NCBI GenBank assembly: GCA_017303355.1
Contig: JAFLCU010000005.1
Location: forward strand, 124,001-188,000
Length of the DNA stretch: 64,000 nucleotides
Source: Caulobacterales bacterium
GTDB taxonomy: Bacteria > Pseudomonadota > Alphaproteobacteria > Caulobacterales > Aquidulcibacteraceae
Direction: 5' to 3'
The notes under the pieces are model-generated. The model searched no databases. It had not been told where the DNA came from and saw only the letters and a program-made list of their open reading frames with translations. How positions within the stretch are numbered: the stretch's first letter is position 1; the number at the start of each line of letters is the position of its first letter. The position numbers and the translations under genes are program-made. Positions 51,456 to 54,993 of this stretch are shown here, piece by piece.

Positions 51456-52784
51456 CTAGGCGTCTTCACCTTCAAGCACACGACGCGCGGCAATCACGCC
51501 GTCGCGCGCCAAATCCTCGGCCTGCTCCACCCATTCTTCGTTGGCGACGCGGCCGCGCAGGCGGAAATAGCGCTCGATCCAGGCGACATTCTCCGGCGTC
51601 CACGCCGCGATCTGATCGAAGTGAAAAACGCCGATCGCGTTCAGCGTGGTCTGCTGCAAGGGGCTGACGCCTTCGATCAACGTGAGGTCATCCGGCGCGC
51701 CATGACGCGCGGAGGTCAGCACCGGCGGCTTCTTGCTGGGCGTCGTGGACGCAGCAGGCGTGGGCGCGACCTCTTCCGCGTCGACGTGCACGGGTGCGGC
51801 GATCGTCTGGACGATCACCTGCGTCGGGCGCTGTTCAAGATGGCGGACGCGCGCTTCAAGATAGCGCGCACGCCAACGCCAACGATCCGGATCGGGGCCC
51901 GTGTCGGCGACGAATATCGGCTCGGGCGCGACCGCGGCCTCCGGCGCCGGCTCCTCCGCGACCGCCGCATCGGCCTGGAGATAGGCCACGCGGCGCTCAA
52001 GATAGAGCAATCGCCAGCGCAGCAGCATGTCCACATCGGCGTTGGCGGCGAACGGCGGCTCCTCCGCGAGCGCATGCGGTTCGTCCACGATATCTTCCTG
52101 GATCGGCGCGGTCACGCGGCGCAGCTCGGCTTCGAGGAAATTCGCGCGCTGTTCCGCGTCACGCGCGCGCCATGCCTCCGTTGGCGCCACTTCTAGCGAT
52201 TCCGGCACAACGGGCTGTGGCGCGGGGACGACCGCCGACGCAGCGGCGGCCAAGCCTTCCAAGTAGCGGACGCGCTGCTCGAAATAGCGCAAGCGCCACG
52301 TCTGCAACGCATCATCCTCACGCGGCGCCTGTTCTTGCACCGCTTCGACCGGCGCGGCGATCACATCCACCTCGCGCGAGCGTTGGGTCTCGTACTCGGC
52401 GACAAGAGCGCGAAGGCGTTCGAGTTCCTCATTATCTGCGCGCCCGCCCTCGATGCGACGCTGCGTTTCAGCAAGCAGACCCGCGGCGTCATCGGCGCGG
52501 CCGCGCGCTTGCCCAAGCAAGCCTTCCAACTCGACGATGCGCCCATCGCGCACCTCGATCAGACGGCGCAACGAATCCAACTCGCGTGAAGTTTCCAATT
52601 CATCGCCAGCGACCGCATCACCCGAGGCCAAGCGCGCCAGATCGCGCAGCAATCCCTCGCGCTCACGACGAAGCTTCGCCTCGCCGGGCGCTGCGCGTTG
52701 TGTTGCATACGCCCAGCCAGCGAGCGCCGCGAAGGCAGCGGTGAGGATGAGCCAGAACGCCAATTGTCCGATCAGATAGGCCAT
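51456..52784 (-). CDS. Repeat protein: TM anchor, coiled coil, four WRxRYLE repeats, C-terminal helix-hairpin domain
   Basis: 442 residues. TM helix 5-25; coiled coil about 33-135; four degenerate repeats of the form W-R-x-R-Y-x-E-x-R-V-x-Y-L-E at 163-177, 205-220, 257-271 and 302-317 separated by acidic, Pro/Ala-rich linkers; then a helix-hairpin-helix-like domain (DDLTLIEGVSPLQQTTLNAIGVFHFDQIAAWTPENVAWIERYF, 366-407) like that at the C-terminus of some NADH-dehydrogenase and ribosomal-protein homologues. Four nt behind the OmpA-domain gene. I know no function. Confidence 0.75.
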   Translation of the reverse strand: MAYLIGQLAFWLILTAAFAALAGWAYATQRAAPGEAKLRREREGLLRDLARLASGDAVAGDELETSRELDSLRRLIEVRDGRIVELEGLLGQARGRADDAAGLLAETQRRIEGGRADNEELERLRALVAEYETQRSREVDVIAAPVEAVQEQAPREDDALQTWRLRYFEQRVRYLEGLAAAASAVVPAPQPVVPESLEVAPTEAWRARDAEQRANFLEAELRRVTAPIQEDIVDEPHALAEEPPFAANADVDMLLRWRLLYLERRVAYLQADAAVAEEPAPEAAVAPEPIFVADTGPDPDRWRWRARYLEARVRHLEQRPTQVIVQTIAAPVHVDAEEVAPTPAASTTPSKKPPVLTSARHGAPDDLTLIEGVSPLQQTTLNAIGVFHFDQIAAWTPENVAWIERYFRLRGRVANEEWVEQAEDLARDGVIAARRVLEGEDA

Positions 52785-52788
52785 GGCC

Positions 52789-53907
52789 TCACCCGCTCAC
52801 ATAAAATTCGATGCGCCGGTTCGACGCCTGGCCGGCCTCTGTTGCGTTGCTTGCGCGAGGCCGATCGGGCCCATAGCCGCGCGCCGTCAGCCGTGAACGC
52901 GCCACCCCTTGTCCGGAGAGATAGTTCGCGACAGCGTCGGCGCGCGTCTGCGACAATTCCATGTTGAGTTCGCGCGTGCCGACATTGTCGGTGTGACCAG
53001 CGACCTCGAGCGAAAACCGATCGCAGCGCAACGCGACCGAGGCAAGTGAATCCAGCACGCGGCGGCTGGACGGATCGATGGCCGAGGACCCTGGCGCGAA
53101 ATTGATGACATTGCGCTCCATCAAGCGATCGAAAGCGCGTTCGCACGTCTCGGCATCACCATTGTTGAGGTTCAATCCCTGAAGCTCAGGATGATCGACG
53201 TCCAGCCCATCGATCGTCACCGCCAGACGCGAGCGGAACGGCGCGGGCGGCTCCTCGAAGGCGCCGCGCAGCGCATCGACGGCAGGCTGGCCGCCATCGC
53301 CAATCACCACGAGCTGGCTATCGACGATGCGCGCCTCGCCGCTATTCATGTCCGCGAGCAGGCGCACGGCGTCGCGCGCGACCTGTGTAAACGAAGGCGA
53401 AGGCGCACCGCCCGCGACGTGCATATCGTCAACGGCTTCAACTGTCGGGAACGCTTGCGCGGCCGCGGCCATCAAATCCGCACGCGCGTTTTCGGAAGGT
53501 ACAGCGCCTGCAAGCACCACCCGGCTCTCCGCGCGACGAACGCTCCAAGTATATGGGCGCTCGAACGCGCCGACGCTGACGCCCGCCACGTCAACGCTTG
53601 TGACGCCGCCCGCCCAAGCGCCGCCCGCGCCCTCGGCCGAGAGCGCGGCGCGGCGCGCGGCTTCAACGTCGGTTTCGTCTTCAACGATGCCGCGCAAGAC
53701 AGCGCGCTGCCCGTCCATATCGATTTCAAGGCCTGGATAGCCCGCCGCCAGCAACGAGGTGGCGACATGCTGCTCCAGCACGCCGGGCATCTTCCAGAAG
53801 GCGCCCGCATGCGGCGAGGCAATGCCCAGAAGCGCACACAAAGCAGCGCCGGCGGCGCCAATCCACAGCAGGACCCGCTGTGACGCCGGATCGCGTTCGT
53901 CGTTCAT
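52789..53907 (-). CDS. OmpA-domain protein with BON-like periplasmic repeats
   Basis: 372 residues. An N-terminal TM helix (about 13-33) instead of a cleavable signal; two BON-like units (AVLRGIVEDETDVEAARRAAL and VVLAGAVPSENARADLMAAA) at about 60-165; an OmpA/MotB peptidoglycan-binding domain at 262-372 with VAGHTDNVGTRELNMELSQTRADAVANYL. Inner-membrane-anchored OmpA proteins tether complexes to the wall. It overlaps the upstream small gene by 4 nt. Confidence 0.82.
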   Translation of the reverse strand: MNDERDPASQRVLLWIGAAGAALCALLGIASPHAGAFWKMPGVLEQHVATSLLAAGYPGLEIDMDGQRAVLRGIVEDETDVEAARRAALSAEGAGGAWAGGVTSVDVAGVSVGAFERPYTWSVRRAESRVVLAGAVPSENARADLMAAAAQAFPTVEAVDDMHVAGGAPSPSFTQVARDAVRLLADMNSGEARIVDSQLVVIGDGGQPAVDALRGAFEEPPAPFRSRLAVTIDGLDVDHPELQGLNLNNGDAETCERAFDRLMERNVINFAPGSSAIDPSSRRVLDSLASVALRCDRFSLEVAGHTDNVGTRELNMELSQTRADAVANYLSGQGVARSRLTARGYGPDRPRASNATEAGQASNRRIEFYVSG

Positions 53908-54080
53908 CGGGCGCGCCGCACTTGCGCTTCGCTGAGCGCGGCCCGCAATTGACCGATCTCACGTTCTTCGGCGCGACGGCGCTGCGCCGCGAAATAGGCG
54001 CGTATGCGCCACCCCAGCGCGAAGCCAAGACCGGCGGCGACAACGAACAAGATCACCTGGGATAAGAAGAGGCCGAGCAT
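53904..54080 (-). CDS. Small single-TM protein, first gene of the envelope-like operon
   Basis: 58 residues from the ATG at 54080 (a GTG at 54110 is the alternative). One TM helix (LFLSQVILFVVAAGLGFALGW) then a short basic coiled-coil tail (RAEEREIGQLRAALSEAQVRRAR). Stop overlaps the OmpA-domain gene start. Confidence 0.6.
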   Translation of the reverse strand: MLGLFLSQVILFVVAAGLGFALGWRIRAYFAAQRRRAEEREIGQLRAALSEAQVRRAR

Positions 54081-54186
54081 ATTTCCCGCGTCACGCGCGT
54101 TGATGCGCACTTAACGCCCTTCTAATGCCTGGCGATCTAGGCGAAAACCTGAAACACCCCGGCGGGCGAACGCCCAGAAGAGACCC

Positions 54187-54993
54187 ATGGCGCACCAGAT
54201 CACCAGCGCGTCCAATCCCCTGATCAAGACGCTCAAAAGCCTGCACATGAAGAAGGGCCGCGCCGAGACCGGCCTCTTCCTTGCCGAAGGCGCAAGGTTG
54301 GCGGTCGAGGCGTCGGAACTGGGCGTCTGGCCGGATATCTTGGTTTATGCGCCGGCGGCGACGGAGCGCCCGCAGGTGCGCGCGCTGATCGCGGAAGCTG
54401 AGAAACGCAGTGTGCGCGTGATCGAGACCAATGAGAGCATTCTCGGCCAGATCAGCAAGCGCGATAACCCGCAGACGGTGATCGGCGCCTACAAGCAGAA
54501 TTTGGCTTCGCTGGAGGCGCTGGAGGGCGAGACGATCGTGGCGCTCGAAGGCATCCGCGATCCTGGCAATCTTGGTACGATTTTACGCACAGCGGATTCG
54601 ACCGGCGCTGGCGGCGTCGTGCTGATTGGCGAAACCTGCGATCCGTTTTCCGTGGAAGCCGTGCGCGCGAGCATGGGCTCACTGTTTGCGATGCCGCTGG
54701 CGCGGGCGTCGTTCGAGGATTTGGTACGTTTCAAGACGACGCGCGGCGCCGAGATGTCGGGCTTATCGCTGAAAGGCGCGATGGCCGATGCGAGCGCGAC
54801 GGCGCCGAAACGTGCGATCATTCTGATGGGCAACGAACAATCGGGCTTGCCGTCGCATATGGAGGCGGCATGCGATGTGTTGGTGAAGCTGCCCATGCGC
54901 GGGCGCGCGGATAGTTTGAACCTGGCGATCGCGACGGGCGTGATGCTGTATGATGTGTGGCGGAGACGCGGATATGACGGCGCGCGCGCCTGA
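54187..54993 (+). CDS. SpoU/TrmH-family RNA 2'-O-methyltransferase
   Basis: 268 residues. An L30e-like N-terminal RNA-binding part (SASNPLIKTLKSLHMKKGR…FLAEGARL) and the knotted SPOUT domain with all three motifs: RDPGNLGTILRTAD, LMGNEQSGL and LPMRGRADSLNLAIATGVMLYD. Modifies a ribose of rRNA or tRNA; the exact target is not visible. Confidence 0.9.
   Translation: MAHQITSASNPLIKTLKSLHMKKGRAETGLFLAEGARLAVEASELGVWPDILVYAPAATERPQVRALIAEAEKRSVRVIETNESILGQISKRDNPQTVIGAYKQNLASLEALEGETIVALEGIRDPGNLGTILRTADSTGAGGVVLIGETCDPFSVEAVRASMGSLFAMPLARASFEDLVRFKTTRGAEMSGLSLKGAMADASATAPKRAIILMGNEQSGLPSHMEAACDVLVKLPMRGRADSLNLAIATGVMLYDVWRRRGYDGARA

Follow-up and report, generated by a model that had tools for sequence, protein, structure and literature searches.

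Three closely spaced genes in the window (the whole 64,000-nt stretch of Caulobacterales DNA analysed here) raise the question of whether a bacterium can be joined from its cell wall, through the inner membrane, to something in the cytoplasm by a set of small anchored proteins and, if so, whether the cytoplasmic end holds nucleic acid or protein. The earlier note had proposed such a bridge and had left both kinds of target standing. To address this question we examined the genes themselves, the domains that they encode and their conservation in related genomes.

The three-gene operon is real. A check of the ORF list confirmed three open reading frames at the positions given in the earlier note, all on the minus strand, as are the features within them: gene A (53904..54080; ORF, alignment, dN/dS, TM prediction and charge), which encodes 58 amino acids with one TM helix and a basic, predicted cytoplasmic tail ending LRxALxEAQVRRAR; gene B (52789..53907; Pfam, AlphaFold2 and Foldseek), 372 amino acids with a TM helix, three BON-like modules and an OmpA_C peptidoglycan-binding domain; and gene C (51456..52784; ORF, NCBIfam and model), 442 amino acids with a TM segment, a coil, four WRxRYLE helices and a C-terminal helix-hairpin (HhH or H3TH) domain. 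The 4-nt couplings noted before were found at both junctions, but they differ in kind, with an ATGA overlap between genes A and B and a gap between the stop of gene B and the start of gene C. Because gene A lies 5′ of gene B with the identical 4-nt overlap wherever the genus has a full-length locus, and because purifying selection acts on each of the three (dN/dS about 0.09-0.31 for gene A, 0.04-0.25 for gene B and 0.10-0.35 for gene C), we consider all three to be genuine. Promoter and terminator scans of the operon gave scores no better than shuffled sequence. The region upstream of the operon is shared with a divergent plus-strand gene at 54187-54993, which by eye resembles a TrmH/SpoU-type RNA methyltransferase, and a similar gene occupies the equivalent position in one other locus (L041).

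Gene A starts at the ATG at 54080, where the alignment begins, and an in-frame GTG lies upstream at 54110. Its predicted TM helix spans residues 4-22 (hydropathy and charge), and the C-terminal tail, residues 45-58 (53907..53948), is near-invariant in an alignment of 23 homologues. The gene is specific to the family, whose other genera have a similar small TM gene at the equivalent site. Matches to the TM segment of gene C were weak (E 0.002-0.004), and we do not claim gene A as a duplicate of that segment.

The AlphaFold2 model of gene B (mean pLDDT 89, 23 sequences) opens with a TM helix at residues 7-30 (53818..53889; model, hydropathy and charge), oriented so that the C-terminus is predicted to be periplasmic. 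This is followed by a BON module at residues 40-112 (53572..53790; Pfam BON 29.8 bits against a cut-off of 27, and model), a BON-like module at residues 120-164 (53416..53550; Pfam BON_like 19.7 bits, below the cut-off of 24.1, and model) and a second BON-like module at residues 173-232 (53212..53391), recognized in the model by its alpha-beta-beta-alpha-beta order. The protein ends in an OmpA-like peptidoglycan-binding domain at residues 252-371 (52795..53154; Pfam E 1.5e-21, alignment and model), in which NxxLSxxRAxxV and GHTD hardly vary within the family and the mDAP-binding motif is kept. The assignment of gene B as a BON/OmpA protein was therefore upheld by Pfam, although the model contains three BON-like modules, not one. 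Pfam, the model and charge also agree with the inner-membrane anchor and predicted periplasmic peptidoglycan-binding domain proposed for it. In a sister genus, the OmpA domain of the gene B homologue (L047:4980-6023) has lost GHTD and the peptidoglycan-binding motif, and with them the protein may have lost its wall anchor.

Gene C begins with a TM segment at residues 4-22 (52719..52775; alignment, hydropathy and charge) followed by a GW signature. Its model, of low overall confidence (pTM 0.30), has a long N-terminal helix at residues 2-53 that includes the TM segment and a second long helix at residues 62-138. Downstream lie four repeats found by pattern, each coinciding with a modelled helix: WRLRYFEQRVRYLEG from residue 163 (52251..52298; helix 153-184), WRARDAEQRANFLEA from residue 205 (52125..52172; helix 203-225), WRLLYLERRVAYLQA from residue 257 (51969..52016; helix 249-276) and WRARYLEARVRHLEQ from residue 304 (51828..51875; helix 299-318). 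Four matches to the motif W-R-x-x-Y-x-E occurred in none of 20,000 shuffles, with a pattern composed after the repeats had been seen. The description of gene C as an anchored protein with four WRxRYLE repeats thus stands, but not that of a single coiled coil, since the repeat helices in the model are isolated and short, with disordered linkers between them. These helices may be only part of a self-associating coil. Weak Pfam matches to Tropomyosin and baculovirus PEP were dismissed as coil composition, and a Foldseek search with gene C returned no significant match. Three to four WRxRYLE copies are found in the genus, other families usually having one (of the WRNRYLE type) or none, and the four-fold repeats are confined to the genus. 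Three gene C homologues from family f4 of the order have an extra conserved C-terminal segment, VKDVCQEMKGERFKSRVTFYYLAAKKA, which we suspect to be DUF2853.

The HhH/H3TH domain of gene C occupies residues 359-441 (51462..51710; NCBIfam and PDB matches, model and residue counts), with GVS rather than GVG in the hairpin, and is modelled as a compact, all-helical unit with pLDDT above 90 over most of its length. While a Pfam search found no domain in the tail, NCBIfam and PDB searches matched it. The domain is a homologue of the extensions found at the C-termini of NuoE, ribosomal L21, ribosomal S2 and the phasin PhaH, the NuoE C-terminus giving E 8.9e-26 (below cut-off), and it also matches PDB entries 8yy9_O (RC-LH1 protein-O) and 9wqv_a (complex I 41 kDa subunit). 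Gene C is thus similar to known H3TH carriers in both sequence and fold, and we take the domain to be of the COG3743 type. Identification of the whole protein as NuoE, L21 or S2 was rejected (91, 63 and 52 bits against cut-offs of 514, 281 and 526), as was its identification as a PhaH phasin (56 bits against 250, over the C-terminal part only). In eleven Rhodobacterales loci a protein-O-like TM-TM-H3TH gene stands directly after an H3TH-tailed NuoE gene; one of these loci (L131) adds a third, phasin-like H3TH gene behind the two. Some partners in three further loci (L102, L063 and L107) have H3TH domains in tandem, two or three per protein.

Each of the three proteins has one predicted TM helix, and in genes A and C the basic flank lies C-terminal of it, so that by the positive-inside rule their tails are predicted to be cytoplasmic. 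The C-terminus of gene B is probably periplasmic, because it carries the peptidoglycan-binding domain. Inner-membrane anchors on all three proteins and a cytoplasm-facing helix-hairpin domain on gene C, both part of the original proposal, are consistent with these predictions.

Conserved synteny, which had been set as a test of that proposal, was also found. All 26 full loci of the genus have a TM partner next to gene B, and the arrangement with the partner directly downstream is kept in four of the five families of the order (f1, f2, f4 and f5) and in other alphaproteobacterial families; in a class-wide sample, genes B and C were adjacent in ten members of further families. The fifth family of the order (f3), perhaps Caulobacteraceae, gave weaker gene B matches or none in the order-wide sample. 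As the sampled Caulobacteraceae are without a full gene B, no Caulobacter phenotype can be transferred to the operon. A TM protein starts within about 50 nt 3′ of gene B in 64 of 69 distinct strong homologues, a count partly biased by loci that were retrieved via gene C; among loci outside the genus that were retrieved via gene B alone, the partner is present in 18 of 18, being read for one of them (L177) from L094, which contains the same gene. At four loci of a genus in f5 (L051, L052, L176 and L186, with L052 and L176 representing a single site), all that is left of gene C is a TM stub of 61-62 amino acids, 13-15 nt 3′ of gene B and without coil or H3TH. Because even the stub still directly follows gene B, TM pairing appears to be the conserved core and the tail the variable part. 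Named loci in a scan of genome contigs included ones from Hyphomonas polymorpha, H. johnsonii, Hyphomicrobiales MAGs and three Campylobacterota MAGs, and in a phylum-wide sample 67 of the 70 domain-bearing genomes belong to the window's own class. The three loci binned as Campylobacterota (L116, L162 and L163) have an OmpA gene with a TM-H3TH gene after it; horizontal transfer or a binning error is possible. With the B-C pair adjacent across families, the objection that synteny might be absent fails. Taken together, the predicted anchors, the wall domain of gene B, the cytoplasmic domain of gene C and the synteny make up the layout of a wall-to-cytoplasm bridge.

These proteins might nonetheless be co-transcribed envelope components that form no single complex, gene B being a lone wall anchor while the products of genes A and C work in other inner-membrane machines in the manner of NuoE or protein-O. 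That the H3TH domain is borne by many unrelated proteins (PMC12079452) would fit such an arrangement. However, a TM partner follows gene B in several families, even as a bare TM stub, and the genes are tightly coupled in translation, and we regard separate functions as unlikely.

To examine what the cytoplasmic domain might hold, we aligned 25 distinct HhH domains from the genus with 132 distinct relatives. At position 374, the second hairpin glycine, 127 of 131 relatives have Gly and all 25 genus domains have Ser or Thr; Lys or Arg at position 376 (101/132 relatives) and Arg at position 415 (128/130) do not occur in the genus at all, with the qualification that the relatives' domains were partly found by patterns from the H3TH domain itself, which favours conserved sequences. 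By analogy with HhH proteins in general, the residues lost at these three positions would be expected to contact DNA. Core residues D365, D366, G385, Q391, W418 and Q421 are kept in the genus, and the mean net charge of the domain is -6.5, where the larger groups of relatives have means of -1.5 to -2.7. Gene C therefore does not have the hairpin G-h-G and basic residues of a canonical HhH. The genus domain thus appears to have kept its fold and lost the face on which nucleic acid would be expected to bind, and more likely holds a protein than DNA. The earlier description of a 'nucleic-acid- or protein-binding' domain is supported for the helix-hairpin itself, but its nucleic-acid option is unlikely in the genus, given the loss of the hairpin residues.

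These replacements also bear on the possibility of a wall-to-nucleoid tether, in which the HhH domain of gene C would bind DNA nonspecifically, as PhaH does, and gene B would anchor the chromosome to the envelope. The gene C domain matches the PhaH C-terminus (NCBIfam E 5.8e-15, below cut-off), relatives paired with gene B outside the genus mostly have the canonical hairpin, and the HhH domain of PhaH is described in a review as binding DNA nonspecifically (PMC13052382). Against this, the hairpin glycine, the next lysine and the distal arginine are all replaced in the genus and the domain is acidic, which makes a nucleoid tether quite doubtful here. Relatives whose hairpin is canonical may use this layout to tether DNA.

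A further possibility comes from gene B. Its best PDB match by Foldseek is Mycobacterium tuberculosis Rv0899/ArfA (2L26; E 1.7e-13, 260 columns, both domains), although the two superpose poorly over their full length (TM-scores 0.30/0.41, rmsd 13), a result that we take to reflect differing domain orientation. With its N-terminal anchor, BON-type centre, OmpA_C domain with the peptidoglycan-binding motif and structural match over both domains, gene B has the features of an Rv0899/ArfA-type protein. The operon could accordingly be an ArfABC-like system of small TM proteins and a BON-OmpA protein, working in acid adaptation, ammonia release or envelope permeability; we know of no HhH-tailed member of the arf system. 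A role of Rv0899 in ammonia release and at low pH is given in a review, yet its porin role is itself disputed (PMC3816664), and we hold this function to be improbable for the operon. That gene B is the peptidoglycan-binding half of a MotB- or ZorB-like ion-driven stator can be dismissed almost entirely, since the PADLOC ZorB match (E 1.5e-10) is limited to the generic OmpA domain, BON modules fill the stretch between the TM helix and that domain, and there is no MotA/ZorA or multi-TM partner gene in the operon or directly beside gene B in relatives.

We therefore favour, at a probability of about one half, an operon that encodes a wall-anchored inner-membrane scaffold in which the gene C tail binds cytoplasmic proteins. 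In such a scaffold, the N-terminal helix of gene B would sit in the inner membrane, its three BON-like modules would reach outward and its OmpA-type domain would clamp peptidoglycan. Gene C and, in this family, gene A would be single-pass partners whose TM helices, which carry a conserved Gly-Trp signature, pair with gene B. The gene C tail would extend into the cytoplasm as four short helices, each with a WRxRYLE repeat, joined by flexible linkers and with the acidic HhH domain at the end, offering several docking sites and fixing a cytoplasmic protein or assembly relative to the wall; the HhH domain of the genus would have shifted from a canonical nucleic-acid-type surface to protein binding. 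We infer that the three proteins contact one another, that the repeats and HhH domain bind protein and that a cytoplasmic partner exists. More tentatively, and with the odds against it, the B-C pair could be an alphaproteobacterial envelope-to-cytoplasm tether that ancestrally joined wall and nucleoid through a DNA-binding HhH domain, the tail having been rebuilt in the genus as a multivalent protein scaffold by hairpin loss and four-fold amplification of WRxRYLE.

The operon matters because the H3TH domain, which is attached to many alphaproteobacterial complexes and whose cytoplasmic role is called obscure (PMC12079452), is paired here with a peptidoglycan-binding protein in many families. 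Relatives with a canonical hairpin, the genus that has lost it and the genus that has lost the whole tail form a natural comparison, which makes the binding target of the H3TH domain directly testable; the answer would show by what means such bacteria link their wall to the cell interior. The term undescribed, applied to the operon before, is apt only in part. The components are of known kinds, gene B having the Rv0899 or BON+BON+OmpA architecture and gene C the catalogued H3TH/COG3743 domain, while neither the conserved pair of an OmpA and a TM-H3TH gene nor the genus-specific switch was found described in the open-licence literature searched, which is not proof of novelty.

Several known systems resemble parts of this arrangement. 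The H3TH extensions of alphaproteobacterial NuoE, L21 and S2 are homologous to the gene C domain, but are borne on soluble proteins. The acidic HhH of NusA AR2, complexed with the protein SuhB (6ib8), has a fold like that of the gene C tail (TMt 0.68, 69 columns), in a match that is weak (E 2.8, prob 0.35). PhaH of Caulobacter crescentus, which connects a structure with something in the cytoplasm, carries at its C-terminus an HhH from the family of the gene C domain; unlike PhaH, gene C has no phasin part, is predicted to be membrane-anchored and in the genus has lost the hairpin residues. Protein-O of Dinoroseobacter shibae (8YY9) shares with gene C a membrane anchor, a flexible linker and the same C-terminal domain, whose function on the RC-LH1 complex is called obscure (PMC12079452), but it has two TM helices where gene C has one together with the coil, the WRxRYLE repeats and, as partner, an OmpA gene. 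The BON+BON+OmpA architecture has been catalogued (cluster 7; PMC7806268), and Rv0899-like proteins are a described family whose spread has been reviewed (PMC3816664). Rv0899 (ArfA/OmpATb) shares with gene B the N-terminal TM anchor, BON-type middle and OmpA-type C-terminus; in contrast to Rv0899, gene B belongs to a Gram-negative alphaproteobacterium, is preceded by the small TM gene A and has a conserved downstream TM partner with a predicted cytoplasmic HhH tail.
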